Shown piece by piece: positions 10,725 to 34,729 of a stretch of 44,785 nucleotides of DNA. The notes below the pieces were generated by a model. The model had not been told where the DNA came from. It ran no database searches and worked only from the letters and a program-made list of their open reading frames with translations. The stretch comes from Spirochaetaceae bacterium (GTDB taxonomy: Bacteria > Spirochaetota > Spirochaetia > Treponematales > Breznakiellaceae): positions 1 through 44,785 of the forward strand of contig JAISIL010000019.1 of the NCBI GenBank assembly GCA_031262035.1. The letters run 5' to 3'. Position numbers and translations under genes: made by a program. Within the stretch, counting starts at the first letter, position 1. The number at the start of each line of letters is the position of its first letter.

Positions 10725-10739
10725 ACAGAACCACCTATT

Positions 10740-11840: not shown

Positions 11841-11853
11841 ATTAAATTCCTCC

Positions 11854-14820: not shown

Positions 14821-14836
14821 ATTATGCTACTCTTCC

Positions 14837-15208
14837 TTACACACTTATTTCCATCTCTTCATCTTGAGACTGGCTTTGCTCAACATATTCACCAGTCACA
14901 TTAACATTTATGGGACGGTTCAATTCCCGCGAAGCGGCAACACGATGGGCACCATCTCCAACTAGTTCATATTTATCACCGCATTTATTAACCTCTATTG
15001 ACTCTGCTTCTTCTGGTTTTCTATAACATTCAACATCCATATATTGCTCTTTACTCCGACCATGATGTTCCCAAAAACCGGGAGTATCAGGATTCCAGTC
15101 TTTTTCAAACATAACATCATGAGGGCTTATTTCTTCTTTATAGGGAGAACACTTCTCCCATCGCAATTCGCCTGAATTTCGCTTTTGCTCAAATTCATTT
15201 CTGTTCAT
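14837..15208 (-). CDS. ParB-like domain protein
   Basis: 123 residues. The core YELVGDGAHRVAASRELNRPINVNV (about 80-105) matches the ParB/sulfiredoxin-fold motif G-D/N-x-R/H-R-x-x-A, here G-D-G-A-H-R-V-A-A. ParB-type folds include CTPases that load on DNA, and nucleases. There is no helix-turn-helix, so this is not a partition protein. The upstream part (PHDVMFEKDWNPDTPGFWEHHGRSKEQYMDVECYRKPEEAE) is unassigned. The ATG overlaps the stop of the 359-residue GTPase (TAATGA), so the two are translationally coupled, and 16 bp separate it from the 988-residue gene. A nucleotide-binding accessory or a small effector are both possible. Confidence 0.55.
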   Translation of the reverse strand: MNRNEFEQKRNSGELRWEKCSPYKEEISPHDVMFEKDWNPDTPGFWEHHGRSKEQYMDVECYRKPEEAESIEVNKCGDKYELVGDGAHRVAASRELNRPINVNVTGEYVEQSQSQDEEMEISV

Positions 15209-16284
15209 TTATTTTTCCTCAAAAGATTAAAAATTTTCTGTTTTAATTTCTTTGGGGAAGGGTCAAACCTTTCTTCTGAGGTATCAATGAAACCCTTCTG
15301 TGTAAATAGCCAGAGAATCGGGTCCAAAATGCGATGCGGACGCACAGCATCAAGCTCTGATTTGTTTTCCAAATCTATACCGTAGCTTGATACACCAAAA
15401 TAGGCATGTCGGGCAAAGTCAGCCTCGATTGCGTCTATGAAAGAATTTTCGTTATGGGATGCAAGCCATGCCTTTATGTCTGTTTCTACCGCTCCTGAAT
15501 CAATATGTTGAAAGACTCCTTTTTCTGAATGCGGGCTTTTCTGTAAAATCATACAATCAGTAAAATCTTCTGCCAGGGCATCCATTTTGGTAAATATAAC
15601 CGCTACCGGGATTTTTACCTTCTGATTTGCAGGCAAGCCAAAAATGGCTTTGATATAGGCAGCTACATTGTTTACTACCTCTGCAGAATTTTTATATTCT
15701 GTATCATTGATATCAGCAACGGATTTCTTGAAAATATCTTTGCTAACTCTGTCCCTCACGCTCTTGAGAATTATTGGGTCAAAGATAAGCATAATAGCGT
15801 CAGAAGCTGTAATATATTTGCAATTCACAGAGTCAATACCAAGATCATGATGATCCTTTCCGGAACCATCGAAAATGGTGAATGTATTTGTTTCAACCTT
15901 ATATTTACTTGACCTGTTTAGGTTCTTAACACGCCATATTTGCGGGCGTAATTCTCCAGGCTCTGTGGCCTGAAGTTTTTGATGACTGTCATAAAGAAGC
16001 CTGGCATTATTATGATGAACTGTCTTTGTTTCATGATTCTGTGGCGAGGAAACCAAATGCAGTTTATCACTGTTATTTATCATTTCTTCCAGCATTGCGG
16101 TGATATAATTAGTTTTACCCGCTCCCTTTACCCCAACAATACTAAAAATTAAGTTTGGCGTTTCCAGCATATCAGCAGGTAACTCTTCATTGCACTTGAC
16201 ACAGTAAAGCCTCGAATCCCGTTTCTCAATAGCCTTCTCATTAAGTTCAGCTAAACAGTAGGGACAAATTCTTTTAGTTGCCAT
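15205..16284 (-). CDS. DO-GTPase-type protein with zinc ribbon (2)
   Basis: 359 residues. The N-terminal ribbon is CPYC...CVKC (about 7-33). Walker A GVKGAGKT is near residue 50, FDGSGKD replaces the usual D-x-A-G-E switch, and FTKMD is the guanine motif. It is a paralog of the 366-residue GTPase, sharing HRILDPILWLF at the C-terminus, and is followed by a basic tail. The Ala-to-Ser and Glu-to-Lys changes in the switch may alter hydrolysis. It follows the Hsp70-vWA gene by 20 bp and overlaps the ParB-like gene. Two soluble paralogs plus one membrane form suggest a hetero-oligomeric GTPase switch. Confidence 0.75.
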   Translation of the reverse strand: MATKRICPYCLAELNEKAIEKRDSRLYCVKCNEELPADMLETPNLIFSIVGVKGAGKTNYITAMLEEMINNSDKLHLVSSPQNHETKTVHHNNARLLYDSHQKLQATEPGELRPQIWRVKNLNRSSKYKVETNTFTIFDGSGKDHHDLGIDSVNCKYITASDAIMLIFDPIILKSVRDRVSKDIFKKSVADINDTEYKNSAEVVNNVAAYIKAIFGLPANQKVKIPVAVIFTKMDALAEDFTDCMILQKSPHSEKGVFQHIDSGAVETDIKAWLASHNENSFIDAIEADFARHAYFGVSSYGIDLENKSELDAVRPHRILDPILWLFTQKGFIDTSEERFDPSPKKLKQKIFNLLRKNK

Positions 16285-16304
16285 ATTATCAGTTCTCCTT
16301 TTAT

Positions 16305-18503
16305 CTATTCTTCCCAGGTATCTACATCGGTCACCGTGCCGTCGGCTCCGCTTCTTGCACTACCGCCTCCGCCCAAGCTCTGCGCGATGGTACCAAAGGC
16401 ACTGCTCAGTTCCGACTGTGCAACCAGCATGGCGTTAGCATCGTTTGATGAAATATCCCGAAGGAATGCTTCATCAGCACCACCGAAACCAATTGCGGCG
16501 GTTTCAATATTTACCGCATTGCAATCTTTTGCCGCAGATACCGCCAATGACTGGTCATCCCAAACACCATCGGCAAGCACCAGAGCAAATAAACGACCAT
16601 CTTCACGCAAGAGCATTTGCTTGATAGTATCAAAAGGATGAGCAGAATTTCCATAGCCTGTCTGTCCGCAAGTAATAGACTGAATTGCCCATATACAAGC
16701 ACTTTCGTTGTCTGTCAATTCGCAAACAATCTCGCTGCTATCCGACACGGCAACAATGCCCACTTTTGTATACGAGAAATCCATTGCCTGGACAAAGTTA
16801 CACATTGCTCTTTGCGCATCAGCAAGAGGATCTCCAGACATGCTTCCCGACACATCAACAGCCATAACCACATTGAGGGGTTCAGGCTGCGCCTTAAATA
16901 GTTCCGGGTCTATTGGTATACCATACTGCGACATATCCTCCGGGACAGGTTCTGTGCGGATTGACAGGTTTTTCCGCTCGTTTTCCTGCCTGGCTTCCAC
17001 ATGAATAATGCCGTTGTTGTCATAACTGTATTGAACTTTTATTGTTGTTTGCCCTTTTTGTTCCCTGATGTGGCGGATGCCTGACACTACATACTTATAG
17101 GGGATCAAGCAGTCAAGCGGAGCTTCTTTGTCACCCTGCAAAACATATATTTCCATATCATTTGGATTGCGGGCTGATGTATAGAAGCTAAAGGCTTTGG
17201 CAACCCGAACTGGGCGTGGATGGTTTGCAGGGATGATAATGTCATTGATGTAGCGCGTCCTGTCTGTACTCATAGCAATCATTCCCATTGCGTGGGCGGT
17301 GGTCTCGCGAAGGGACAGCATACCGATACCGGCCAGTTTTTTTGATGGCTGCACTACCGCTCTGTTTGCCAGTCCGCTCTCTTTTCTGTTGGTTACTTTC
17401 TTACCGTCCGGCATTACCTGCATGGAGAGTTTTGCATATTGCTCATTTTCCTTGGTGGTCTGAATAGCCGCACCCAGGGCGACCGCTTCGTCAGGATTAA
17501 CATGCGCAATAGGCTTTTTGCCGAACTGATTTTGTATATACTCCGACACCTGCGGCATTCGCGTGGAGCCGCCCACCAGTAATATATCGGTAACATCGCC
17601 CTTGGTCAAACCTGCTTCATCCAGAACCGCCTGGCAGAGGCTGCCGGTCCGGTCCATGAGGTCAGCGCTGTTTTCTTCGAAGTCCTGCCGGGTAACAGTT
17701 ACCGATGCAGAGCCAAAACCGGGAATGGTGGCGCTAACCTTGGCGTTATCCATAGAAGATAGTTTCTTTTTAACGCCTTCGGTCATTCCCCGTAGCATTG
17801 ATTTTATTGCCGGGTCTCCATTGGTATCAACGCCGGTTTCAGCAGCAAATTTATCGATCAGCATATTTTCCAGACGGTCATCCCAGTCGCGTCCGCCCAG
17901 GTAGTGATCGCCACGTGTGGTGATTGTGGTAAGGTTGCCATCATGCCCCATGCGGACAAGCGTTACATCAAAAGTGCCGCCGCCCAGGTCAAAGACGAGG
18001 ATGTTGGCATTTTCGCGCCAGTTATTCAAACCATAGGCCATCGCCGCTGCATTGGGCTCGTCAATAATTTTCTTGACCTTAAGCCCTGCCGCCGTTGCTG
18101 CGCGTAGTGTTGCTTCACGCTCAGGCGAGTAGAAGTAAGCGGGCACCGTGATAACGGCGTCCTGTATGCTGTCTCCCAATTCCGCCTCCGCGTCTTCTTT
18201 CAGATGGCGCAGTAGCAATGCCGATAAATCTTCCGCCGTATAGGAGACGTTATCTATGGTGCAATATACTTCCTGCCTGCCCATGCTGCGCTTGAATGTC
18301 GCGGCACAGCCGCTTTCACCCGCGTTAAAGGCGCTCTCCGCCTCCGAACCGAAAATAGGCTTTCCGTCAATAAACTGAATTATTGACGGAGTAATCTGTT
18401 TGCCCTCGGAATTTGGAATTATCTTTGGCATCTTTGTCTGCGGATCAATATACGCAACTGCAGAAAAAGTTGTGCCCAAATCAATGCCAACTGAAACAGC
18501 CAT
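16305..18503 (-). CDS. Hsp70-like ATPase fused to a vWA domain
   Basis: 732 residues. The N-terminal actin-fold ATPase is intact by motif: GIDLGTTFSAVAY (phosphate 1), VFDLGGGTFDVTLV (phosphate 2) and LLVGGSTRMPQV (adenosine). A shortened beta domain follows (about 380-530); the normal alpha-helical lid is absent. In its place is a von Willebrand A domain (about 545-720) with the metal site DVSGSMS and, further on, a T/N loop and LADGVWDD. vWA domains bind protein partners through a metal ion, so this looks like an Hsp70 whose lid has been swapped for an adhesion or adaptor module. Hsp70-vWA pairings occur in predicted NTP-dependent conflict systems. It lies 21 bp after the second Hsp70 gene. 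Confidence 0.85.
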   Translation of the reverse strand: MAVSVGIDLGTTFSAVAYIDPQTKMPKIIPNSEGKQITPSIIQFIDGKPIFGSEAESAFNAGESGCAATFKRSMGRQEVYCTIDNVSYTAEDLSALLLRHLKEDAEAELGDSIQDAVITVPAYFYSPEREATLRAATAAGLKVKKIIDEPNAAAMAYGLNNWRENANILVFDLGGGTFDVTLVRMGHDGNLTTITTRGDHYLGGRDWDDRLENMLIDKFAAETGVDTNGDPAIKSMLRGMTEGVKKKLSSMDNAKVSATIPGFGSASVTVTRQDFEENSADLMDRTGSLCQAVLDEAGLTKGDVTDILLVGGSTRMPQVSEYIQNQFGKKPIAHVNPDEAVALGAAIQTTKENEQYAKLSMQVMPDGKKVTNRKESGLANRAVVQPSKKLAGIGMLSLRETTAHAMGMIAMSTDRTRYINDIIIPANHPRPVRVAKAFSFYTSARNPNDMEIYVLQGDKEAPLDCLIPYKYVVSGIRHIREQKGQTTIKVQYSYDNNGIIHVEARQENERKNLSIRTEPVPEDMSQYGIPIDPELFKAQPEPLNVVMAVDVSGSMSGDPLADAQRAMCNFVQAMDFSYTKVGIVAVSDSSEIVCELTDNESACIWAIQSITCGQTGYGNSAHPFDTIKQMLLREDGRLFALVLADGVWDDQSLAVSAAKDCNAVNIETAAIGFGGADEAFLRDISSNDANAMLVAQSELSSAFGTIAQSLGGGGSARSGADGTVTDVDTWEE

Positions 18504-18524
18504 ATTCTTAAGCCTCCTTTTGCC

Positions 18525-20228
18525 TTACAAATTACCGCTGGTATGCACAGTGGCCATGTGTTTCACAGCTTCGGTAAGCTCTTCCTGTGACATGGTATTT
18601 TCTGAGGTGATAACCGTGTTGACCGTTTCACCTGTTGTCATATTAGTGGCACGAACTTCCAGGCCGATTGCACTGCAACGGAAGAAAACTTCAATTGGTG
18701 TACCCTTTGGAGTTCCAGGGGGCAGTTCAAGACGTACATTACCGAGACTCTTTACTTTAAGTGCAGGATCGGTGTATTGTTCGTTTCCATTTTCATCGAT
18801 TGAAGGTGTCACATGCTTATTCACGCGGTCTTTGGCAAAATTTTCAAACACGGTAAACTCAACCGCAGCCTGATTGTCCGCCATTGTTCCATATTGCCCA
18901 GTGGCTTCTGACGGCATTTCATCACCATCAAAGAGAAGGTTGTCAATCATGTAATGTGATTCATCGACAAAGACTGCCGGTCCGAAGGAGCGAGAAAGTT
19001 TGTCGTTAAATGTGCTTACCTGTTGAGGTATACCTATTCGTAATTTGGATGCCTCTTCTTCCGTTATTGGCTGGGTAGGTGCCTGAGTATTTTCAATATC
19101 ATTTATTTCACTAAATTGATCAGTTTCTCCACGAACGCGCTTATCTATGATTTCGTTCCATTCGATAGCTGCGGCAAGTGCTGCGCCTTTGGCAACAGCC
19201 AGGTTGGGGTCTTCAACACGGACTTTGCTGTGAAACATGCCTTCTACTGCATTCTTTATCATCGGCATAAAAGTAGAACCACCGACCAAGAGAACCACAT
19301 CAATGTTCTCCGGCGCTAGAGAGTTATTAGAAAGAAGCTGGCGGACAAAGTCCATTGTACGTTCAACTAAGTCCTGTGTAAGTTCCTCAAATTTTTCTGC
19401 TGAAACTTCAATTCTAGTAGTATCCCCGCTGTAAGATACATTGAAACTGTGGGTCGCTTTTTTCGAGAGTAGTTTCTTGATTCCCTCCACCTGATTTTTA
19501 ATATTAACACGCAGTTCATTGTCAATCTGATCGGTGCTTAAACCATTTTCATTGCAATACTGTTCGGCAATATAATCATATAAACGTGCGTCCCAGTCAA
19601 TACCACCAAGCCTGTCATCACCCCCTTTGTCAATAATGTCAATCGTGGCTTTTCCTGCTTCGTCAACGGCGAAGTTAAACAGCGTAATATCAAAGGTGCC
19701 GCCGCCCAGGTCGTAGACCATGATTTTTCGGTTCTCCTTGAATTCACGACAGCAATAATTCAGTGCGGCTGCTGTTGGCTCATTTACAATGTTCAGTACA
19801 TTCAATCCTGCGACAATGCCCGCCTGCTTGGTTGCGGCGCGTTCTTCGTTGCCAAAATATGCAGGGCAGGTAATGACAACATCTTTCACATCCTCTCCCT
19901 GCTCATTTGCATACTCTTTCATGCGTTTAAGAATAAGAGACGAGATAGTAATAGGGTCATATGTTATACCGTCAAACTCCCTTTTCTGTGCGTCACTCTT
20001 GCCAATTTCGCGCTTCACATACTGCACAACCCTTTCCGGTTCTACCTCCGCCTGCGATTTTGCTACCTCACCCACAACGGGGTCGCCGCCTTCCTGGAAG
20101 TACACAGCCGAAGCGAGTGTTCGCGTGCCTTCGTCCTGGTTTTCAATAACAATCGGCATGCCGTTGTCATCCAGTGTGGCAATTACCGAATAGGTAGTGC
20201 CCAAATCAATTCCATAAACCTTTGCCAT
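18525..20228 (-). CDS. DnaK-family Hsp70 chaperone paralog
   Basis: 567 residues from ATG 20228, which has AGGAG 8 nt upstream; a start at 20264 would overlap the GrpE-like gene. ATPase motifs are present: GIDLGTTYSVIATLD, MVYDLGGGTFDITLF and VVLLVGGSTFMPMI. About 60 residues shorter than standard DnaK, it has a beta domain (LGNVRLELPPGTPKGTPIEVFF) and only a short C-terminal helix, and no acidic EEVD-like tail. It is a dedicated paralog, not the housekeeping dnaK, which is normally next to dnaJ. With the GrpE-like factor 4 bp upstream it should form a self-sufficient ATPase cycle that handles operon proteins. Confidence 0.85.
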   Translation of the reverse strand: MAKVYGIDLGTTYSVIATLDDNGMPIVIENQDEGTRTLASAVYFQEGGDPVVGEVAKSQAEVEPERVVQYVKREIGKSDAQKREFDGITYDPITISSLILKRMKEYANEQGEDVKDVVITCPAYFGNEERAATKQAGIVAGLNVLNIVNEPTAAALNYCCREFKENRKIMVYDLGGGTFDITLFNFAVDEAGKATIDIIDKGGDDRLGGIDWDARLYDYIAEQYCNENGLSTDQIDNELRVNIKNQVEGIKKLLSKKATHSFNVSYSGDTTRIEVSAEKFEELTQDLVERTMDFVRQLLSNNSLAPENIDVVLLVGGSTFMPMIKNAVEGMFHSKVRVEDPNLAVAKGAALAAAIEWNEIIDKRVRGETDQFSEINDIENTQAPTQPITEEEASKLRIGIPQQVSTFNDKLSRSFGPAVFVDESHYMIDNLLFDGDEMPSEATGQYGTMADNQAAVEFTVFENFAKDRVNKHVTPSIDENGNEQYTDPALKVKSLGNVRLELPPGTPKGTPIEVFFRCSAIGLEVRATNMTTGETVNTVITSENTMSQEELTEAVKHMATVHTSGNL

Positions 20229-20232
20229 TATT

Positions 20233-20868
20233 TTACTCCTTCTCTGAATATAGATATATGTCAACCATTTCCTTTATTATTGGTCTGACATCTTTATAAA
20301 AACCTGTGTTGCGGCTTTTCACAACCGTGTCATGCAAAGCCGGCTTATCAGTTGTAATACGTTCAACAACCTGACAAAATTTTGGGTTCCTTTTGTCTCC
20401 AGCTTTGCTTTTTTGGCGAGATACTCCATTAGCCTCCATAATCTGTACCATATCTTCAAGCATATAGCGGACTTTCTTCGCAATCTTTTCATCGACTATT
20501 CCATCCGAAACCGTTTCGTTATCGCTGTAAAGTTTCGCAATATCACCCAGAATTCCGTCAAAAACACGGCCTTTTTCGATTTCGTGATACCGCTCCAGTT
20601 CATCCTGCTGTGTTTTTAGACGGCTGGCAAACTCATTGTGATAAAGCTTGTGCATCTCCCGGACTTCGTTTGCCATTTTTGCCGACGAGTCTGAAATCAT
20701 TCCAAGATCAGCTTCAATCTTGCTGATGCTGGAGCGAATTTCAGAATATTCGTCCACTTGGCTTTCCGTTTCAAGCGTTTCTGTTGCAGCGGCAGGTACT
20801 TCTACCTCGGTAACACCTGATTCTTCTGTCTGCTCTGGTTTTGCAGCAGTAATTTCATCATCTTCCAT
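20233..20868 (-). CDS. GrpE-like nucleotide exchange factor
   Basis: 211 residues from ATG 20868 (AGGAG 9 nt upstream; an in-frame TTG lies two codons earlier). The plan is that of GrpE: an acidic disordered start, a long coiled coil (about 40-110), a helical bundle (LEDMVQIMEANGVSR), then the small beta wing CQVVERITTDKPALHDTVVKSRNTGFY and a closing segment DVRPIIKEMVDIYLY. GrpE releases ADP from Hsp70. Sequence similarity is weak except for the wing, as expected for a partner tuned to the paralogous Hsp70s encoded directly after it. Confidence 0.7.
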   Translation of the reverse strand: MEDDEITAAKPEQTEESGVTEVEVPAAATETLETESQVDEYSEIRSSISKIEADLGMISDSSAKMANEVREMHKLYHNEFASRLKTQQDELERYHEIEKGRVFDGILGDIAKLYSDNETVSDGIVDEKIAKKVRYMLEDMVQIMEANGVSRQKSKAGDKRNPKFCQVVERITTDKPALHDTVVKSRNTGFYKDVRPIIKEMVDIYLYSEKE

Positions 20869-20891
20869 TGTCAATTTCTCCTCTTATATAC

Positions 20892-22220
20892 CTATATTTC
20901 TGCGAAGAGTATTCCTTCGCTATTTTGAATACATGCCAATGATCCTGACAGTTTTCCAATGCTTTCCGCCCTGACACGCGGCACATCTTTTTCCTCAACC
21001 GAAATGGAGCGATTATCACCATCTGTCATCATATCGTTATACTTATTGAACTGTGCTATACTCTGCTTCACCTGTATCTTGTGGTATTGCCCGAAATGGT
21101 TTGACCATTTATGACATGAGGTGCCTGAGGTATGTTTTAATAGCACAATGGTGTTCACATTGCCGGTAATTTCAGAAAATAACTCATCTGAACTTTTCTC
21201 TCCTCCTGATATGTCAGATATAAAATCGCGTGAACTTATTGAGTATGTGCGGCCTCGAATCAAATCTCTTGCTTTTGAAAATCGTGAAAGAGGTAACTCA
21301 TCAAGCAAAATCGAAAAATTTCTTCCCTGAGATTGCAATAACATCAGATGAGATACTACGAGGTCAAATACTAAGTCATTATTCACGTTGCCGACATCAA
21401 TTGCAATAACGCCATGATGATTAAGTATCTTCTTGATATTACAAGTAGTTGCTCTTGGTTTCCCAAAAACACTTTCAGCTTGCCGGCTTAGTTTATTCAA
21501 GAAGATGCGCACACTGTCCAATTCAGAAGATCCTGACATGTAGTAATGATCTATTTCACGATATTCAGCAAGAGGCAGAACGCCTGTTGTTTGAAGGCTG
21601 TCAAGCTTGTCCTTTAAATCGTGAATGGGAAAAGCAGCCAGATTAGAAAAAGTTATTGTCCCATCTGTTCTAAGCACCACTTCCAACAAAGCATGAAGCA
21701 ATGACTCGGCAGCAGGCTTTGTATCTTTTGGCATTGCATCGTAGAGATAATAGGCCATATCTTCAACAGACATACCCCGGAATACATCATAATAGAGCCC
21801 AGACTGCGAGACAAATTCGGACTCGATGCTATTATCTTGTATCATAGCCTCCAAATCTTTGTCGCTATTATGGAGTGCTATTACCGAAACATTCTCCTGC
21901 TGTGATTTACGAACAAAAGGCATCAACGCTCTCACTCTCGCATCGTTTTCACCGCCTGACACAATCATACATTCAGGCTCTTTGTTGTCTCCCCAGATAT
22001 AGTCAACTCCCGGCGTTTTACTCTCAAAGCTCATTGTGTAAACATCGTCATCATTAGGGTCATTTGAGACAAGCAAGAGTTGTTGCTTGCTTATATTTTG
22101 TGCCACAAAGACAGAGCGGGCTTTGTAATTAGAGTCTGCTGCCTGGTTGTATGTCCCCTGTATTTCCTTTCTGGTTTTGCGATTATTGATATAAGTAAAA
22201 ATAGTATCAGTTAAGCCCAT
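20892..22220 (-). CDS. TraG/HerA-like protein with degenerate P-loop
   Basis: 442 residues. It begins 3 bp after the stop of the P-loop ATPase gene. The last half resembles the C-terminal half of VirD4/TraG/HerA ATPases (GVIAIDVGNVNNDLVFDLVVSHLM, then FSILLDELPL as a Walker B-like strand, and a strand ending TIVLLKHTSGTSC). Where a Walker A should be, MIVSGGENDARVRALMPF has glycines but no GK(S/T). I infer a catalytically dead or weak subunit that pairs with the active ATPase, as happens in hetero-oligomeric pumps. A separate unknown family cannot be excluded. There are no TM segments. Confidence 0.5.
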   Translation of the reverse strand: MGLTDTIFTYINNRKTRKEIQGTYNQAADSNYKARSVFVAQNISKQQLLLVSNDPNDDDVYTMSFESKTPGVDYIWGDNKEPECMIVSGGENDARVRALMPFVRKSQQENVSVIALHNSDKDLEAMIQDNSIESEFVSQSGLYYDVFRGMSVEDMAYYLYDAMPKDTKPAAESLLHALLEVVLRTDGTITFSNLAAFPIHDLKDKLDSLQTTGVLPLAEYREIDHYYMSGSSELDSVRIFLNKLSRQAESVFGKPRATTCNIKKILNHHGVIAIDVGNVNNDLVFDLVVSHLMLLQSQGRNFSILLDELPLSRFSKARDLIRGRTYSISSRDFISDISGGEKSSDELFSEITGNVNTIVLLKHTSGTSCHKWSNHFGQYHKIQVKQSIAQFNKYNDMMTDGDNRSISVEEKDVPRVRAESIGKLSGSLACIQNSEGILFAEI

Positions 22221-22223
22221 TTG

Positions 22224-23531
22224 TTATGCTCCATCCTTAAAAAGATCAAATTTATATTTAAAAGGCGGAACAGCAGGAAGGCCCACAACCGCTTCGCCAA
22301 CTCCCAATTCGGCTAAATCCCAATCTTCAACCATAAAACCCTCGCGTTTTTCGTAATGCCGCGAGCCGTTTGCCTCGGCAAAAGTTTCCAGAATCATATT
22401 TTTTCCAAAGAGCTCACTCACATATTTGCGTGTGTTAAAATCGTTGCAGTGAAATGCAAAAATAGATGAAAAGCCAACCACGGCATTACGCGCTTTTGCT
22501 TCATTGTCATAATTAGCGTTTAGCTGATCGATACTCTGCAATCCAGCAAGTATCTTTACACCCAAACTCCGGCCAAAATTGATTCCATCCTCCAGATGCC
22601 GCAGGTTCGGGAGCAGTTTCAACTCGTCAGCCACTAAATACACATTTCCCTGTGTTGCCGTTCTTCCTAAGGCTTCCTTGAGAGCGAGATCAAACAATAG
22701 TGTATATATGGGTGAAAGAATATCACCAATAGCCAAATCATATTCAAGAAAAGCAGTCTTTCCGCCTTTATTTCTGATAAACTTTCGCATCGAAAAGTTC
22801 CCGACACCTGCAAATACACCGGTGAGTACATCACGGGTTACCGCATACATTTCTGAAAGAACACCCTGTGCCTGGGAGCCCGACTTACCGCCAATATACG
22901 CAGCAACCGAAGCAAGATCACGCTGACCGTCCAGCATAGTACGCAGTTCATCAATAGAAGTCGAATCAATAGTATCCTTCAAATCTGCATTACTGAAAGC
23001 AACACCATCGCGCACCATAGTCACCAGAATCGAGGCCAAAAGATCGCGAGCCGCATTGGGAAAGAAGGGATTATTGCTATTCTTTTCAACATGCTCAGCA
23101 AACAAGGACTTGCATATCTCCTGCGCATTCTGCCCAACAGACACCCTGTCTTTTCCATCGGCTGTTATCTCCTCAAAGATGCTCCACTTTTCAGAAGTCT
23201 TCCGGTATTGTATGGAGTTTCCTATTACTATATCGTTTGCCGCGAAAAATTTCTTATGAAAATCCCCCTTGCTGTCAAAAATGAGCATTACATCATCCTT
23301 AGTCAGTTTATTCTTTAACTGCTTGACGATGTGATAAAAGAGATTTGTCTTGCCGCTCCCCGTCCCTCCAACAAGTAGGATATGCTTACTCAACATATCA
23401 CTGCTTATACCGAAAGCCTGCACCTTCCCCTTGAATACACCGGGGACACGCAAAAGTGCCCCTGGTACATCAGGCGGAGGAGAGTTGTTTTCAACAAGTT
23501 TGCCGTATACGATTTCATGTGTAATAGGCAT
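22224..23531 (-). CDS. TraG/VirD4/HerA-type P-loop ATPase
   Basis: 435 residues. Walker A VGGTGSGKTN is near residue 53, followed by VMLIFDSKGDF (a conserved FD-x-KGD stretch of coupling-protein ATPases), Walker B VYLVADELKLLP, and FGRSLGVKILAGLQSIDQL with the sensor Gln typical of VirD4/TraG. Such hexameric ATPases move DNA or protein. There is no N-terminal TM pair, no relaxase and no type IV secretion gene nearby, so it is not a conjugation coupling protein; a HerA-like DNA motor in a defence setting is more likely. It is followed immediately by a P-loop-lacking relative. The preceding 66-residue gene ends 3 bp upstream. Confidence 0.75.
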   Translation of the reverse strand: MPITHEIVYGKLVENNSPPPDVPGALLRVPGVFKGKVQAFGISSDMLSKHILLVGGTGSGKTNLFYHIVKQLKNKLTKDDVMLIFDSKGDFHKKFFAANDIVIGNSIQYRKTSEKWSIFEEITADGKDRVSVGQNAQEICKSLFAEHVEKNSNNPFFPNAARDLLASILVTMVRDGVAFSNADLKDTIDSTSIDELRTMLDGQRDLASVAAYIGGKSGSQAQGVLSEMYAVTRDVLTGVFAGVGNFSMRKFIRNKGGKTAFLEYDLAIGDILSPIYTLLFDLALKEALGRTATQGNVYLVADELKLLPNLRHLEDGINFGRSLGVKILAGLQSIDQLNANYDNEAKARNAVVGFSSIFAFHCNDFNTRKYVSELFGKNMILETFAEANGSRHYEKREGFMVEDWDLAELGVGEAVVGLPAVPPFKYKFDLFKDGA

Positions 23532-24726: not shown

Positions 24727-25005
24727 TTAGGGATAGTCAATCCCTCCATTAGGGTAATGGCACCGGATTATCCGATGCAAACCTTTCATAATTCCACTAA
24801 AAGTCCCATACTTCTGTATAGCAAGTATCATGTAGTTTGAACATGATGGTTCAAACCTGCAACTTGCTCGCAGTTCTGCGGGTGCCTTACTTTGGTAGAG
24901 CCTTATCAGCGAAATGACTAAATTCTCTTTATCAGTCTGCAACACATTAAATCTCACTTTATTCAGCGGAAGAATGTCCGCTGACATATCCATCAAGCGT
25001 ATCAC
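24727..25005 (-). CDS. yidD: YidD membrane-protein insertion efficiency factor
   Basis: Up to 92 residues. The core ISLIRLYQSKAPAEL..SCRFEPSCSNYMILAIQKYG...GLHRIIRCHYPNGGIDYP carries the YidD signature: R-Y-Q-x-x-x(S), C-R-x-x-P-(S/T)-C-S-x-Y and RC.P...GG.D.P. YidD helps YidC insert membrane proteins; housekeeping copies sit in the rnpA-yidC cluster, so this is an accessory copy. It may help the operon's own membrane GTPase or 4-TM protein. The start is uncertain: GTG 25005 overlaps the stop of a possible 22-codon frame upstream, and ATGs at 24993 and 24987 are alternatives; none has a good Shine-Dalgarno. Confidence 0.8.
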   Translation of the reverse strand: MIRLMDMSADILPLNKVRFNVLQTDKENLVISLIRLYQSKAPAELRASCRFEPSCSNYMILAIQKYGTFSGIMKGLHRIIRCHYPNGGIDYP

Positions 25006-26780: not shown

Positions 26781-26966
26781 CTAGCCGATAACCCAATTTG
26801 TGTAGTTACTTCCTCTTTGCCAAGCCTCATAGTTGCCGCAAGCCCTGCAGCTTGCCTCGTTCTCGCACTGGCTTTCTTCTTGACTACTTGATTGTGACTC
26901 TCCCGAAAGACAGCAACTACCCCCTGTCCAGAACGGACAGCAACCTGGAATCTGATGATTCGTCAT
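26781..26966 (-). CDS. Cys-rich mini-protein, copy 4
   Basis: 61 residues. The pattern is Gly-CC-x7-CC-x14-C-x5-C-x2-C with the conserved start IPGCCPFWTG and end NYTNWVIG. Seven cysteines in a cytosolic small protein suggest metal or Fe-S binding. It is the most diverged of the four copies in the middle (SSSQEESQCENEASCRAC). This copy has a type 1 leader, whereas the other three have type 2. It lies 14-115 bp downstream of the 680-residue gene. No known family comes to mind. Confidence 0.7.
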   Translation of the reverse strand: MTNHQIPGCCPFWTGGSCCLSGESQSSSQEESQCENEASCRACGNYEAWQRGSNYTNWVIG

Positions 26967-29427: not shown

Positions 29428-29441
29428 ATATTTCCTCCTTC

Positions 29442-29489
29442 CCTGTATTTAGCACCAATCAACAGGTTTATTTTGCGTGGTGTGGGTGC
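29442..29489 (-). promoter_or_regulatory. type 2 leader, H-type pseudoknot candidate (copy 3)
   Basis: In transcript order: GCACC (29489-29485), CCTGT (29466-29462), GGTGC (29456-29452), ACAGG (29446-29442). The first pairs with the third and the second with the fourth, which is the interleaved order of an H-type pseudoknot. The last strand touches the Shine-Dalgarno (ACAGGGAAGGAGG). Loops between b-a' and a'-b' are 5 nt each. Confidence 0.6.
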
Positions 29490-29561
29490 ATTACATATAA
29501 TTTTTTTTTGCTTATTCACAAGAACATCTTTTATTACTATACAAACTTAGTTTTTTACACT

Positions 29562-30287
29562 TTACCATCCATGCCGATCTCTGAGTCTTATTACAAATCT
29601 ATCAAGAATACATCTTACTAATCGATTAATTATAACAGTATTTCTCAAAGAATTCGCTATCTGCGGGCTTAGCTTGTAATATATAGAAATAAACAGCCTT
29701 CCTAATAACGATTTTGCCAGATATTCATCACGGAAATGCCGCAATGTCATTACTGAAGGTGCGTCGTAGGAACCATAAACGGCGGTAGCTATATAACAGC
29801 CTCCAGAGTTGGACTCTTTTTTTGGCCAACTATTTGGGAAATATTTCATCAATAGGCTCTGTGCCGGTTTATTTCCCTGTTCTGCTGCTTTTAGCCACCA
29901 ACGGATTGCTTTCCAATCTTCTTTTTTTGTTCCGTCGCCATCAAAATAACAACATCCAAGCCATAATTGAGCATCCGCATTCCCTTGTTCGGCTGATTTC
30001 TCGTACCAATACTTTCCTTTTTTTAGGGGGTATTTTTCATTTCCTATACCGTAGCCGTTAAAATAACATTCAGCAAGAAAATCTTGCGCATCTGCGTCTC
30101 CTTGCTCTGCAGCTTTAGTATACCAGTATACGGCTTTTTCTAGATCTTGGGCAACTCCTTCCCCAAGCTTAAGCATTAATCCTAGATGTAATTGTGAGAT
30201 ACTATCTCCGCCATCTGCCTTTTTTTCAAGTTCTCCTACTTCGCATTGTTCCATTTGCGATAGTTTTTCTCGTTCTAATGTACTCAT
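29562..30287 (-). CDS. Sel1-repeat protein with CFI-box C-terminus
   Basis: 241 residues. Three Sel1-like repeats (about 30-150) have the pattern A..WY.KAAEQG.A.AQ..L..CY..G.G. After a linker, the C-terminus carries [50 protein letters not shown], which matches the CFI-box-CTERM region: C-(F/Y)-I-A-T-A-x-Y-G-S, then LR.FRD..L, then YY..SP..A. The Cys at its start is conserved in the family. Sel1 repeats bind partners. The CFI-box is of unknown function and is common in spirochaetes and deltaproteobacteria. GGAGG lies 7 nt before the ATG. A weak remnant of the type 1 core lies at about 30352-30384. Confidence 0.75.
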
Positions 30288-30443
30288 AGTTTATCCTCCA
30301 TTTAACTTAGTCTCGAAAAGAAATCAAATCTTTAAAGACTTATACCTAACGGCTACAATGTGCTCGTCAGCATATTTACATCTTCATCAATGCAATATTT
30401 GGTTCTTTCACATTTATTTTATTACTCTTATACTTGACCTACT

Positions 30444-31070
30444 TCAATTCTGGGAATAAAGTCCTAATAGGTTAGTTACTACTTCTCTAAGACCATCTTC
30501 AGGATTTAATTGCAATACTTTCTGATAATCAGTAATTGCCTTATTATTTTCTTGGTTGTTGCTATATGCTTCTGTGCGTAAATAATAATTTTTGGGTTCG
30601 TTGGGGTCAAGCGATATTGCTTTGCTGTAATCAGTAATTGCTGTTTCATAGTCTTCTAGATCAGAATATAACAAACCTCGTCGTTGATAGTAAGCGGAAT
30701 CATCTGGATTGTTCTTGATAGCATTGTTGAAGTCATTAAGTGCAGCATTGTTATCATTAAAATAATTTGCATACAACAAGCCTCGGTTCCAACAATAAGC
30801 AGCAGAATCTGGTTGTAATTCTATTGCTTTTGTCCAGTCTGCAAGCACCTCGTCCAATTTTTGCAGATTCAAATACACCATCCCTCTTTTACTGTACGAA
30901 TACGCATCGGTTTTATCTAGTTCAAGAGCTGTTGTAAAATCTTGTAGTGCAGCATCATAATTTGCTGAATCAAGAAACACATCCCTTCGGTCAACATAAG
31001 CCGAAGCATCATTTGGATTATTGATAATCCTTTTATTGCACTCATCAATTTTAAGAGCAATATCGTCCAT
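30444..31070 (-). CDS. TPR protein, short paralog
   Basis: 208 residues from ATG 31070; AGGAG lies 6 nt upstream, and the in-frame codons further up belong to the leader. It has five to six TPR units (YVDRRDVFLDSANYDAALQDFTTALELDK, then YSKRGMVYLNLQKLDEVLADWTKAIELQP and so on). The first 140 residues and the 5' leader are nearly identical at DNA level to the 275-residue paralog at 32923-33750. The two then diverge: this copy ends YQKVLQLNPEDGLREVVTNLLGL. Predicted cytosolic scaffold. Confidence 0.75.
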   Translation of the reverse strand: MDDIALKIDECNKRIINNPNDASAYVDRRDVFLDSANYDAALQDFTTALELDKTDAYSYSKRGMVYLNLQKLDEVLADWTKAIELQPDSAAYCWNRGLLYANYFNDNNAALNDFNNAIKNNPDDSAYYQRRGLLYSDLEDYETAITDYSKAISLDPNEPKNYYLRTEAYSNNQENNKAITDYQKVLQLNPEDGLREVVTNLLGLYSQN

Positions 31071-31126
31071 AGACATCTCCTTTCGTAGTTTACTCTCATT
31101 GCAGAGCTTCCATTTCTTCGGTAGTT

Positions 31127-31173
31127 CCAATGCCCGCCCGCATATCCAATATCCCAATCTGCGCAACGCGCGG
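31127..31173 (-). promoter_or_regulatory. type 1 structured leader, copy A
   Basis: CCGCGCGTTGCGCAG (31173-31159: five of six pairs, GTT loop), then ATTGGGATATTGGATATGCGG and GGCATTGG. The core ends 56 nt before ATG 31070. The proximal box CTCTGCAATGAGA-TAAACTACGA-AGGAG is shared with copies B, C and D. Confidence 0.65.
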
Positions 31174-31225
31174 TTTTCCCCTGGCGCTAGCGTTCTAACT
31201 CTATATTTTTTCTTTCATTTCTGAA

Positions 31226-31525
31226 TCATTTTGAAAATAAGATATCAAAAGCTTCACGTGTTGCTTGTAACTCCGGCTCTTTAAGGTATTCAAGCATTAG
31301 ATTTTCATCTATATTCTTAACTTCGGTTAAGAGGCTAGACCATATATCGAAGTTTTGCATCTTAAGCGCTATATTTGCGGCGTTCATCATTGCCATAACA
31401 TGCAAAGGTTTATTATTAGTTTCCTTACCAATACTGCTTAATTCCATAAACTTTTCAAAACCATCCTGGTTATATAAACCATGCAAACCGGAAATTTCTT
31501 TTAACACCTCGTCCATTGTACGCAT
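31226..31525 (-). CDS. small helical protein
   Basis: 99 residues from ATG 31525 (GGAGG 5 nt upstream). It is predicted all-helical: TMDEVLKEISGLHGLYNQDGFEKFMELSSIGKE...PLHVMAMMNAANIALKMQNFDIWSSLLTEVKN. No Cys, no TM segment. It could be a small adaptor or an immunity-type protein, but nothing recognisable supports that. Confidence 0.6.
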   Translation of the reverse strand: MRTMDEVLKEISGLHGLYNQDGFEKFMELSSIGKETNNKPLHVMAMMNAANIALKMQNFDIWSSLLTEVKNIDENLMLEYLKEPELQATREAFDILFSK

Positions 31526-31592
31526 TTTATCCTCCAATCTCTCTAATTTTATTTGACCCAAACAAAATTGATTTTGTTATGGGATGAACTTA

Positions 31593-31826
31593 TTACATAA
31601 GACCTGCTACCGGACATCTTCCATCTCTCTTGAAGCAAAAACAATCTATCATTTTTTGTTGAAAAACGTATGCGTATCTAGCCCATTCCGCGCGATACCC
31701 ATATTTTTCGCAATTCACCTTTTCATAATTATTGCTATTGAGCATCAAAGAATCACAGCATATTGCGCGCATCTCTGATTTTAGTGCGTCACAATCCTTA
31801 GCCAGAATATAATCTGATCTATCCAT
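31593..31826 (-). CDS. Cys-containing small protein
   Basis: 77 residues, MDRSDYILAKDCDALKSEMRA..., with seven cysteines (one at 12, a CC pair, one at about 39, C-F-C and a C-P near the end: CFCFKRDGRCPVAG). The spacing differs from the CCPFW family. Type 1 leader copy B precedes it and GAGGAG lies 7 nt before the ATG. Probably metal-binding; no family recognised. Confidence 0.55.
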   Translation of the reverse strand: MDRSDYILAKDCDALKSEMRAICCDSLMLNSNNYEKVNCEKYGYRAEWARYAYVFQQKMIDCFCFKRDGRCPVAGLM

Positions 31827-31880
31827 ACAAAATCTCCTCGTAGTTTAATCTCATTGCAGAGTTTTAATTCATGGTGTATC

Positions 31881-31928
31881 CCAATGCCCGCTCGCATATC
31901 CATAATATCCATTCCGCACAACGTGCGG
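31881..31928 (-). promoter_or_regulatory. type 1 structured leader, copy B
   Basis: Perfect hairpin CCGCACGTTGTGCGG (31928-31914: 6 bp, GTT loop), then AATGGATATTATGGATATGCG and GGCATTGG. The core ends 54 nt before ATG 31826. Compared with copy A, the fifth base pair is A-U instead of G-C and the second pair is restored. Confidence 0.7.
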
Positions 31929-31973
31929 TTTTTCCTGTTTTATTCTGGCCTTTGTAGTCTACATCCTGAATGC

Positions 31974-32159
31974 CTATCCGATAACCCAATATGTGTAGTT
32001 ACTGCCTCTTTCCCATGCCTCGTAGTTGCCGCAAGTCTTACAGTTTGACTGGTTCTTGCACTGGCTTTCTTCTTGACCGCTTGACTGCGACTCGCCCGAA
32101 AGACAGCAGCTACCCCCTGTCCAGAACGGACAACAACCCGGAATCTGATTGTTTGTCAT
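31974..32159 (-). CDS. Cys-rich mini-protein, copy 2
   Basis: 61 residues from ATG 32159 (GGAGG 6 nt upstream). It is 90% or more identical to copy 3 and has all seven cysteines. Its type 2 leader carries the compensatory GCGCC/GGCGC helix. It is followed 45 bp later by a type 1 leader. Confidence 0.75.
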   Translation of the reverse strand: MTNNQIPGCCPFWTGGSCCLSGESQSSGQEESQCKNQSNCKTCGNYEAWERGSNYTYWVIG

Positions 32160-32174
32160 ATTTATTCCTCCTCT

Positions 32175-32222
32175 CCTGTGTTTAGCGCCGATCAACAGGT
32201 TTATTTTATATGATGTAGGCGC
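32175..32222 (-). promoter_or_regulatory. type 2 leader, pseudoknot candidate (copy 2)
   Basis: GCGCC (32222-32218), CCTGT (32199-32195), GGCGC (32189-32185), ACAGG (32179-32175), followed by AGAGGAGG. The first helix is GCGCC/GGCGC here and GCACC/GGTGC in copies 1 and 3, a compensatory A-U to G-C change. Confidence 0.65.
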
Positions 32223-32257
32223 ACTTTTGTACATTGTATTTTCTCTTAAATAAAATT

Positions 32258-32749
32258 CTACATGTCCTTCATGCTGTCATACAAATCTTGGAGGGCACCA
32301 TGCCCTGATTCATACTCCTTTCGTCTTTCCCATGATTTATAATCAGTTCCAGTCAAGTCTAACGAGTTATTCTTGCTTTCTTTTTCTGTTCTAGTTGTAT
32401 GTATTAACGATGGTCCCATGATACAGAACCCGGTTATTACTATGCCCAGAAAACCAAAAAACCAATTTTCATAATAGTAATCCATAACTGAAAAACTCTC
32501 TATGACTGTTATAACCCATTGTATTATCATAAAGATTTCACTCATTTTTCCAGTATTAATATTAACTACACCCATAATTATTGTTCCTGTTAATACGCCA
32601 ATAATTATTATTGCTATTTGAGTATTCCATTCGAGATCAATATTATGGTACCCATAAATCCAAGTTCCAATGATGATTGATGTAGTTCCTAAGAAAGTTA
32701 TTATCAATATTAATTTCGCGTATGTTTCCTTCAATTTTATTTTTTCCAT
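32258..32749 (-). CDS. four-TM membrane protein
   Basis: 163 residues. Four hydrophobic helices at about 11-30, 43-62, 70-88 and 95-113; the N-terminus (EKIKLKETYAK) is basic, so it lies inside. A charged cytosolic tail of about 45 residues follows (TRTEKESKNNSLDLTGTDYKSWERRKEYESGHG). No transport signature or catalytic residue seen. Type 1 leader copy D precedes it, with GGAG before the ATG. Together with the 932-residue GTPase it is one of two clear membrane proteins in the operon. Confidence 0.65.
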   Translation of the reverse strand: MEKIKLKETYAKLILIITFLGTTSIIIGTWIYGYHNIDLEWNTQIAIIIIGVLTGTIIMGVVNINTGKMSEIFMIIQWVITVIESFSVMDYYYENWFFGFLGIVITGFCIMGPSLIHTTRTEKESKNNSLDLTGTDYKSWERRKEYESGHGALQDLYDSMKDM

Positions 32750-32805
32750 TATGTATCTCCTTCTATAGTTTAATCTCCTTGCAGAGTGTTATACCTTTGA
32801 CGGTT

Positions 32806-32851
32806 CGAATACTAGCCTACATATCCAATAACCCACCCATGTAACGCATAG
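32806..32851 (-). promoter_or_regulatory. type 1 structured leader, copy D
   Basis: CTATGCGTTACATGG (32851-32837: five of six pairs, GTT loop), then GTTATTGGATATGTAGGC and AGTATTCG. The core ends 56 nt before ATG 32749. The AU-rich stem keeps its pairing although it shares few bases with copies A and B. Confidence 0.6.
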
Positions 32852-32874
32852 GCTTCCTCTACATCAACTTACTC

Positions 32875-32905
32875 CTGTGTCTAGTGACAATCGACTAGTT
32901 CTCTC
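32875..32905 (-). promoter_or_regulatory. decayed type 2 leader without its gene
   Basis: On the minus strand this reads AACTAGTCGATTGTCACTAG then ACACAGGAG. It aligns with the end of the type 2 leaders (AACCTGTTGATCGGCGCTAA then ACACAGGAG), but the helices are lost. No Cys-rich gene follows; type 1 leader D starts 24 nt later. Confidence 0.5.
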
Positions 32906-32922
32906 AATACTTAGTAATCAAA

Positions 32923-33750
32923 TTACATGCAATACTTAGCAACTACTTTCAGACTCGCGTTTGCCCCTCCATGCGTAGGGTCCAATTTCAAGGCTTTCTC
33001 ATATTCGATACGTGCTGCATCCCATTGACCTTTGCGGCGATAAATCTCACCACGGCGGTAGTAAGATGCTGGTTCGTTGGGATCAATTTCAATTGCCTTG
33101 TTAAACTCTGGAAGTGCATCGTCGTACTGCTGTTTAAAAAACAGTGCTTCGCCAAGTAAGTGGTGAGCAACCGAGTTATTTGGATCAAGTGAAATCATCT
33201 TCCTAAAGTCAGCGATAGCTTCATCTAGTTGTTTTTTCTCAAGGTATGCACTACCACGGCAGCTGTAAGTATTTACATCATTACAGCCAAGTTCCAATGC
33301 CTTGCTAAGGTCAGAGATAGCTTTGTCATACTCTTCCAGATCAGAATATAACAAACCTCGTCGTTGATAGTAAACAGGATCATTTGGATTGTTCTCAATA
33401 GCCTTGTTGAAATCATTAAGTGCAGCATTGTTATCATTAAAAAAATTTGCATACAACAAGCCTCGGTTCCAACAATAAGCAGCAGAATCTGGTTGTAATT
33501 CTATTGCTTTTGTCCAGTCTGCGAGCACCTCGTCCAATTTTTGCAGATTCAAATACACCATCCCTCTTTTGCTGTACGAATACGCGTCGGTTTTATCTAG
33601 TTTAAGAGCTGTTGTAAAATCTTGTAAGGCAGCATCATAATTTGCTGAATCAAGAAACACATCCCCTCGGTCAACATAAGCCGAAGCATCATTTGGATTA
33701 TTCATAATCCTTTCATTGCACTCATCAATTTTAAGAGCAATATCGTCCAT
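32923..33750 (-). CDS. TPR protein, long paralog
   Basis: 275 residues from ATG 33750 (AGGAG 6 nt upstream; codons before it lie in the leader). Seven to eight TPR units end with the canonical EFNKAIEIDPNEPASYYRRGEIYRRKGQWDAARIEYEKALKLDP. The first 140 residues match the 208-residue paralog almost base for base, after which this copy adds repeats. It follows Cys-rich copy 1 in the transcript. Scaffold or adaptor role inferred. Confidence 0.75.
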   Translation of the reverse strand: MDDIALKIDECNERIMNNPNDASAYVDRGDVFLDSANYDAALQDFTTALKLDKTDAYSYSKRGMVYLNLQKLDEVLADWTKAIELQPDSAAYCWNRGLLYANFFNDNNAALNDFNKAIENNPNDPVYYQRRGLLYSDLEEYDKAISDLSKALELGCNDVNTYSCRGSAYLEKKQLDEAIADFRKMISLDPNNSVAHHLLGEALFFKQQYDDALPEFNKAIEIDPNEPASYYRRGEIYRRKGQWDAARIEYEKALKLDPTHGGANASLKVVAKYCM

Positions 33751-33802
33751 AGACATCTCCTTTCGTAGTTTATCCTCATTGCAGAGCTTTTGTTTTTGAC
33801 GG

Positions 33803-33849
33803 CCAATGCCCGCCTGCATATCCTAAAATTTAATCTGAACAATGTGTAC
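33803..33849 (-). promoter_or_regulatory. type 1 structured leader, copy C
   Basis: The core (TAGGATATGCAGGCGG, GGCATTGG) and the proximal box are well kept, but the hairpin region GTACACATTGTTCAG (33849-33835) pairs poorly. The core ends 52 nt before ATG 33750. Confidence 0.5.
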
Positions 33850-33887
33850 GTTTTTCCTTTCTGACGTTCCGGCAGCCATGTTTTTGG

Positions 33888-34073
33888 CTATCTGATTACC
33901 CAGTCAGTGTAGTTCTTGCCGTCTCGCCAAGCTTCGTAGTTGCCACATGTCTTGCAGTTGGTGTCTGATTTGCAGTTGTACTCTTCGACACCGCTTGAAT
34001 GGCTTTGCCCGGAGAGGCAGCAGTCACTGCCTGTCCAGAAGGGGCAGCAGCCGGGGATTTGGTTGTTAGTCAT
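33888..34073 (-). CDS. Cys-rich mini-protein, copy 1
   Basis: 61 residues from ATG 34073; the ATG directly before it is at the wrong distance from GGAGG. Variant residues: SDCCLSGQSHSSGVEEYNCKSDTNCKTC. All seven cysteines and the IPGCCPFWTG and WVIR ends are kept. It is the most GC-rich copy and the first after the antiterminator gene, 143 bp downstream. Confidence 0.75.
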   Translation of the reverse strand: MTNNQIPGCCPFWTGSDCCLSGQSHSSGVEEYNCKSDTNCKTCGNYEAWRDGKNYTDWVIR

Positions 34074-34087
34074 CATCTTCCTCCTTT

Positions 34088-34136
34088 CCTGTCTTTAGCA
34101 CCAATCAACAAGTGATTTGTTCGAAGCTGTGGGTGC
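34088..34136 (-). promoter_or_regulatory. type 2 leader, pseudoknot candidate (copy 1)
   Basis: GCACC (34136-34132), CTTGT (34112-34108), GGTGC (34102-34098), ACAGG (34092-34088), then AAAGGAGG. The second helix keeps pairing through one U-G wobble although one base differs from copies 2 and 3. Confidence 0.6.
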
Positions 34137-34216
34137 ATGTTATTGCAATTGTGGCAGAAGAATGTCCGTCGACATATTCCATTATTCATATCAACCTAGT
34201 TATGGTTTATCCCTCA

Positions 34217-34729
34217 TCAACTATTTTCCATCACCTTATACGAAAGCCACACCCGGTTGTTATTCTCAAATAGCTCAAACTCTACCAGTGCACACTTCCT
34301 TTTCCGATTTACTTTTACTACTTCACCGTTAAAATCCTTTAATGATCCCTCTGTAATTGTTACCCATGAACCAACTTCTATGGCTTCGAGTAGTCCAATG
34401 ATGCCATTATTATTTATAAATAATTTTACAAATTCCAAGTCTCTTCCTCGTAATTCCTTTGTTCCATCGGAATAATTTAATAGTCTAATCATATACTCAT
34501 TACTTAAAATTTTTCTTTCATCGGTAATAGTGATCTTTTCACCTACTCCAAAAAAAACATATCCAGGCAGTAAATGCCTTATCATTTGTTTGTTATTACC
34601 CCCCTGAACTGTGTCGCGTTTTGCCATGATTGGTATTACTGTGTAGCCTTTATTACGCAAGACTTTGCTGACTGTGTTTTCATGTCTTGTGGAACAAAAT
34701 AAACAATAAATATAATCTAATCTATCCAT
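34217..34729 (-). CDS. LoaP-type NusG paralog, processive antiterminator
   Basis: 170 residues from ATG 34729. The NGN domain covers about residues 1-105 (YIYCLFCSTRHENTVSKVLRNKGYTVIPI..., RHLLPGYVFFGV, the last matching the conserved L-P-G-Y-V-F). The KOW domain follows (GSWVTITEGSLKDFNGEVVKVNRKRKCALVEFELF). NusG paralogs of the LoaP group ride RNA polymerase through terminators in long operons and are encoded at or near the operon's start, as here. It is shorter than RfaH/NusG by little and lacks the NusG-specific acidic insert. An in-frame GTG at 34750 is an alternative start; ATG 34729 is preferred (GGAG 10 nt upstream). Reading such a 32-kb operon without antitermination would be hard. 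Confidence 0.8.
   Translation of the reverse strand: MDRLDYIYCLFCSTRHENTVSKVLRNKGYTVIPIMAKRDTVQGGNNKQMIRHLLPGYVFFGVGEKITITDERKILSNEYMIRLLNYSDGTKELRGRDLEFVKLFINNNGIIGLLEAIEVGSWVTITEGSLKDFNGEVVKVNRKRKCALVEFELFENNNRVWLSYKVMENS

Follow-up and report, generated by a model that had tools for sequence, protein, structure and literature searches.

A predicted H-type pseudoknot leader at the ribosome-binding sites of repeated Cys-rich genes in a spirochaetal conflict-system-like operon

Introduction

Translation of T4 gp32, a Zn(II) protein, is repressed by gp32 itself by way of a leader pseudoknot (PMC3014915). Among the riboswitches, SAM-V precedes SAM-related genes, e.g. metY, and most of its triplex nucleotides are more than 97% conserved (PMC6061858). 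The type I subgroup of preQ1-I has been listed under 'indirect SDS occlusion', that is, of the Shine-Dalgarno sequence (PMC11625349), and LoaP exerts its action via a small hairpin in the leader (PMC12691694). Here we analysed a stretch of 44,785 nucleotides (nt) from a Spirochaetaceae bacterium (GCA_031262035.1, contig JAISIL010000019.1, positions 1 to 44,785; the window), in which repeated genes for small Cys-rich proteins share a leader that is predicted to fold, at the ribosome site, into an H-type pseudoknot.

The leader is about 56 nt long (56-57 nt) and precedes three of the four Cys-rich genes of the window (C2, C3 and C4), all on the minus strand. Our best reading is that the leader controls translation, is restricted to a lineage and belongs to a long operon that resembles a conflict system. 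To our knowledge, post-transcriptional regulation of GTPase/HSP70-type conflict systems is an open question.

Results

The leader has the layout a, loop 1 (18-19 nt in C2 to C4), b, 5 nt, a', 5 nt, b', 3 nt, GGAGG and the start codon. In C2 (minus strand, 29489..29434) it reads GCACC-18nt-CCTGT-TGATT-GGTGC-TAAAT-ACAGG-GAA-GGAGG, with the two strands of helix a at 29485..29489 (GCACC) and 29452..29456 (GGTGC), those of helix b at 29462..29466 (CCTGT) and 29442..29446 (ACAGG), and the Shine-Dalgarno sequence GGAGG at 29434..29438, 3 nt past b'. The C3 leader (minus strand, 32222..32167) reads GCGCC-18nt-CCTGT-TGATC-GGCGC-TAAAC-ACAGG-AGA-GGAGG, and its strands lie at 32222-32218 (a), 32199-32195 (b), 32189-32185 (a') and 32179-32175 (b'), followed by GGAGG at 32171-32167. 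The C4 leader (minus strand, 34136..34080) reads GCACC-19nt-CTTGT-TGATT-GGTGC-TAAAG-ACAGG-AAA-GGAGG, where a (GCACC) lies at 34136-34132, b (CTTGT) at 34112-34108, a' (GGTGC) at 34102-34098, b' (ACAGG) at 34092-34088 and GGAGG at 34084-34080. The initial annotation had described this strand order for three of the four genes, together with a compensatory change of helix a in one copy and a wobble in helix b of another, and the minus-strand sequences bear this out. Helix a changes from GCACC/GGTGC to GCGCC/GGCGC in C3, which replaces an A-U by a G-C pair, and helix b of C4 (CTTGT/ACAGG) pairs via a U.G wobble. Strand b' had also been said to abut GGAGG directly. This needs to be corrected, since the 3 nt between them leave the Shine-Dalgarno sequence outside helix b.

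A pattern search of the same genome revealed a fourth intact copy (L8; locus L008, G000:C4:437-494) before a fifth, divergent Cys-rich gene. Its helix a forms four of five pairs in the aligned register (GTGCC/GGCAA) and all five after a shift by one base (TGCCA/TGGCA). The fifth intact copy (L079:2936-2992) lies on a contig of a Prevotellaceae metagenome-assembled genome and was located by its protein alone, in a scan of a Cys-rich protein profile against one genome per species (84,980 species) that yielded 20 loci. When a covariance model was trained on the remaining four copies, L079 scored 36.2 bits (E 1.7e-7) against it; as it was not in the training set, L079 is an out-of-sample confirmation of the leader model. 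The helices of L079 are GCGCC/GGCGC and CCTGT/GCAGG, the latter surviving because of a U.G pair, and its Shine-Dalgarno sequence may overlap b'. A further helix around strand a, noticed by eye in L8 and L079 (GGTTTC/GAAACC and GTTCCC/GGGAAC), was dropped, as it is absent from C4. At one end of the L079 contig (1-4396) lies an ABC transporter, at the other a window-like Cys-rich/TPR unit; the arrangement reflects either horizontal transfer or a chimeric contig.

All five intact copies have the strand order a-b-a'-b' with both helices possible. The stems comprise 5 base pairs (bp) each, loop 1 varies in length (18-20 nt), loop 2 is short (TGAY) and loop 3 is A-rich with about 5-6 nt; the conserved unpaired bases are the TGA of loop 2 and the TA.A of loop 3. 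The 3' end of b' lies 11-16 nt from the start codon in every copy and GGAGG is present in four of the five. Counted from the start codon, the predicted pseudoknot spans about -62 to -12.

Scanning all 5-bp helices on the five-sequence alignment, we found that only a and b attain 22 of 25 paired cells, and a pseudoknot appeared in none of 2000 column shuffles. The alignment controls agree but are modest given five sequences: 98% of cells were paired compared to 94% in the shuffles, and sliding the 3' partners by 1-3 columns lowered the paired cells from 98% to 24-49%. Moreover, a sequence-free scan that used only topology and position was positive in 5/5 leaders and in 0/20 other Cys-rich genes (C1 and 19 homologues); shuffled sequences were positive in 0-3 of 100 cases for the five leaders and in 0-8 of 100 per sequence in the whole scan.

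Helix a covaries at two compensated positions; helix b has one wobble in each of two copies. Further covariation in homologues, which the initial annotation had made a touchstone of the structure, was seen in part: both helices are kept in L8 and L079 and helix a is re-paired in L8, but helix b shows wobbles only. From b through the Shine-Dalgarno sequence, C2 and L8 are identical at 29 of 35 positions (83%), whereas in codons for the same residue the third position is shared in 7 of 26 cases (27%) and the proteins are identical at 29 of 61 residues. Loop 1 is not conserved, its identity ranging from 5/18 (C3 vs C4) to 14/20 (L8 vs L079). The window also contains a decayed leader copy whose Cys-rich gene is gone (minus strand, 32868..32921). 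Both helices are lost here, with an A-A clash in b/b' (CTAGT/ACAGG) and no upstream complement to a', and GGAGG is lost as well. Since the leader identity between C2 and L8 exceeds that at third positions, and since the gene-less remnant has lost its helices, selective constraint on the 3' part of the leader and on the pairing looks real from the aligned sequences.

The summed stem stacking amounts to -18.0 to -22.5 kcal/mol, compared to -6.5 to -11.2 kcal/mol for nested folds, before pseudoknot loop penalties. Such penalties are about 10 kcal/mol; hence the knot is competitive and plausible, not overwhelming.

In 200 genomes of the bacterium's own family, the leader model gave strong matches (70.7-81 bits) in its own genome only. 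The 199 other genomes had no strong match, the next score being 28.4 bits in unrelated sequence. Weak matches in relatives (about 28 bits and below) were treated as chance because the best ones sit in unrelated sequence, and the genomes with Cys-rich homologues scored 18-24 bits, the same level as these. Within the genomes searched, the leader occurs only before the Cys-rich gene family, in one genome and one foreign contig, and L079 alone among the 20 profile loci carries it. The exact leader pattern had no match in the viral or genome collections (84,980 species' genomes), blastn of the leader against plasmids and phages gave nothing beyond chance (E of 1 or higher), and no Cys-rich homologues were found in viral contigs. 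Rfam covariance models, run at gathering and permissive thresholds, yielded no riboswitch at the gathering score; the best was preQ1-II with 13.1 bits against 47. Of the covariance-model searches, proposed earlier as a check on the leader, that with the leader model matched L079, and those with the Rfam riboswitches stayed below their gathering scores.

The Cys-rich protein itself is patchy, being found in 15/200 genomes of the family, 2/393 in the order of L079 and 2/395 in the class of the source bacterium. The 20 profile loci are titled Treponema, Spirochaetaceae/Spirochaetia, Bacteroidia including Candidatus Symbiothrix, Prevotellaceae and Cloacimonadota; judging from the names, several of these are termite-gut lineages. 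The source spirochaete is a relative of bacteria from termite guts. TPR, Sel1 and beta-flower proteins recur next to the homologues, and at locus L089 the window's T4CP-like ATPase (80% identical) and its neighbour (59%) adjoin a homologue.

The genes preceded by the leader, all on the minus strand, are C2 (29242..29427, 61 amino acids (aa)), C3 (31974..32159, 61 aa) and C4 (33888..34076, 61-62 aa with two in-frame ATGs). C1 (26781..26966, minus strand, ATG at 26966, 61 aa) lacks the pseudoknot leader, yet its protein is 84-85% identical; the end of a second leader type precedes this gene. The products have five invariant Cys and are probably metal-binding.

Just upstream of C4 and the first leader lies a gene for a NusG paralogue (34217..34729, minus strand; KOW 2.5e-6, NusG 8e-5), likely at the head of a very long operon, as for LoaP/RfaH-type factors. 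Downstream on the same strand (5424-23531) follow genes for a T4CP-like ATPase, a GrpE-like protein, HSP70, HSP70-VWA and GTPases with double-GTPase similarity, whose double-GTPase matches fall just under the Pfam cut-off. Strand and spacing suggest a single long transcript across the gene run. The TPR genes at 30447-31070 and 32926-33753 (minus strand) have long near-identical stretches in common and are part of a recently duplicated, shuffled array.

The second leader type is about 100 nt long (...CTCTGCAATGAGnnTAAACTACGAAAGGAG) and stands before TPR and other genes, with ends at 31077, 31832, 32757 and 33757 (minus strand) and also at G000:C60:57219-57248. Its consensus fold pairs CTCT with GGAG, and an alternative pairs CTC with a nearby GAG; a possible Shine-Dalgarno switch could be read from this. 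By eye, its CATTG/CAATG complementarity seems re-paired in C1. A repeated hairpin (ATGCCGGCGGACATTnTTCCGCC) is found near Cys-rich genes and precedes several leaders (window 24965-24987 and 34153-34175, minus strand; L008 405-427 and 779-801; L079 2903-2925 and 3201-3223). The source genome has only four matches to it, which are confined to the two contigs bearing Cys-rich genes, and the stem is altered in L079 but still pairs (GCCGGA/TCCGGC). The hairpin is possibly the recognition site of an operon-specific factor.

Discussion

Our data comprise the sequence, the conserved complementarity, the position and the distribution of the leader. We consider it highly probable that an H-type pseudoknot at the ribosome site is real, and we lean towards an action on translation. 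For the reading as a whole, a cis-acting pseudoknot that serves as a translational control element, we estimate a probability of about 0.5. This value leaves the effector open, so that the explanations which differ in the effector overlap with it.

The region occupied by the knot (about -62 to -12) overlaps the footprint of the 30S ribosomal subunit. Folding in the cell, effect on translation and effector are parts that we infer. GGAGG would stay unpaired while the knot sits within the 30S footprint, and no alternative fold that pairs GGAGG was seen in the leader. These two points make steric hindrance or trapping of the 30S subunit the likely mode, as in preQ1-I type I or S15. A folded knot would hinder or trap ribosome loading and a melted knot would permit it. 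The knot might thereby set, or let a trans-acting factor set, the translation of each Cys-rich gene separately within a polycistronic message. Candidates for a protein effector would be the Cys-rich protein and the other proteins that the operon encodes.

Several observations speak against this interpretation. The changes in helix b are one-sided and only retain wobbles, so that covariation is restricted to two positions of helix a. There are five intact sequences, three of which are close paralogues; L8 requires a register shift for full pairing of helix a, and L079 lacks a clean GGAGG (GCAGGATAGAAGA) and has a weaker site. Nested folding of the leader, by a method without pseudoknots, is not more stable than that of shuffled sequence. 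The Cys-rich protein has no significant match in Pfam, NCBIfam or PDB, and its AlphaFold model is uninformative (predicted local distance difference test score, pLDDT, 52), with no RNA-binding fold assignable. Furthermore, C1 and most homologues do without the leader, which is therefore dispensable for the gene family.

A protein effector is more likely than a small molecule, because the leader is tied to one gene family and almost one lineage and because loop 1 is not conserved. Even so, a protein effector of any kind is only a tentative suggestion, and a small-molecule ligand is doubtful. Autogenous control, in which the Cys-rich protein would recognise the knot in the mRNA that encodes it, in the manner of T4 gp32 or S15, is possible. 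It would account for the finding that the leader occurs only with this gene family, L8 and L079 included, and the small, Cys-rich product is like many nucleic-acid-binding zinc proteins, with T4 gp32 as the precedent of a Zn(II) protein with a leader pseudoknot (PMC3014915). However, neither C1, despite its similar protein, nor the homologues in other genera carry the leader, and the fold gives no evidence for RNA binding. An effector-free, constitutive structure, by which the knot would insulate initiation from upstream ribosomes or protect the mRNA end, may be considered with similar caution. The leader sits in intergenic spacers of a co-directed gene run, C1 keeps its gene despite a different leader, and an alternative fold pairing the Shine-Dalgarno sequence was not seen; but this explanation leaves the tie to one gene family and the conserved bases of loops 2 and 3 unaccounted for.

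The initial annotation had favoured a translation riboswitch of the small pseudoknot type, possibly responsive to a metal or cofactor. Its H-type topology, the compensatory change and the position at the ribosome site are supported. In an orphan-class riboswitch, a small molecule bound at loop 1, 2 or 3 would stabilise the knot and shut the gene, as in SAM-II, SAM-V and preQ1-I, where topology and Shine-Dalgarno placement are the same; the conserved unpaired TGA and TA.A would fit. We nevertheless regard this as improbable. Besides the missing Rfam match, conserved ligand-pocket nucleotides were not found in loop 1 or the third strand: loop 1, the ligand strand in SAM-V, is variable (C3 vs C4). 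Recurrence before functionally linked genes in many genomes was not seen either, as the leader is almost absent beyond one genome (one of 200 in the family, plus one contig among the Cys-rich homologues of 84,980 species' genomes) and precedes a single gene family that has no metabolic assignment. A metal or cofactor riboswitch is unsupported. The only feature in the data that hints at a metal, heme or a cofactor is the Cys content of the product.

A DNA-level element, namely a recombination or duplication boundary of gene cassettes with incidental complementarity, would suit the duplicated and shuffled array, the exchanged leader at C1 and the lost gene at the remnant, but is very improbable, given that the complementarity is interleaved instead of nested, is kept through compensatory changes, lies at the same position before the start codon in 5/5 copies and is lost once the gene is gone.

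Rather speculatively, the translational control element could represent a regulatory RNA family of a new kind: a small, Cys-rich and probably metal-binding protein, or else a metabolite, would bind the pseudoknot and adjust the translation of Cys-rich components of a GTPase/HSP70 conflict-system operon; this would be an RNA switch dedicated to an immunity-like system. If the element is confirmed, repeated small genes within a long GTPase/HSP70 conflict-system type operon would have translational control of their own, through a hitherto undescribed pseudoknot leader. Five natural variants, a gene-less dead copy and a paralogue with a different leader form a compact set for reporter tests.

Among the known systems, SAM-II and SAM-V share with the leader an H-type pseudoknot just 5' of the Shine-Dalgarno sequence, an A-rich strand facing the first stem and control at the level of translation (PMC6061858). 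They differ in that our leader has no Rfam match and an unconserved loop 1, and that an unassigned Cys-rich family lies downstream. The preQ1 class I riboswitch is likewise a very small H-type pseudoknot at the ribosome site, and the indirect occlusion of its type I subgroup fits a free GGAGG beside the knot. In contrast, the leader has no class I match in Rfam, where preQ1-II gave the sole preQ1 hit, no queuosine gene downstream and a loop 1 of 18-20 nt. T4 gene 32 likewise has a leader pseudoknot, by which a Zn protein represses its own gene (PMC3014915); metal binding by the product is probable in our case. The T4 knot is placed 67 nt ahead of the start codon, from which an A+U-rich tract separates it, and ours 3 nt before the Shine-Dalgarno sequence. 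In E. coli, the translational operator of the S15 gene (rpsO) also contains a pseudoknot (PMC3014915), but sequence and protein are unrelated. The NusG paralogue just upstream of the first leader and the repeated hairpin before several leaders recall the LoaP-type NusG paralogues; LoaP acts on transcription termination, while the pseudoknot is located at translation start sites. Finally, the downstream gene set of the window is reminiscent of the GAP1-N2 GTPase-centred conflict systems and their HSP70/GrpE theme (PMC7159879).

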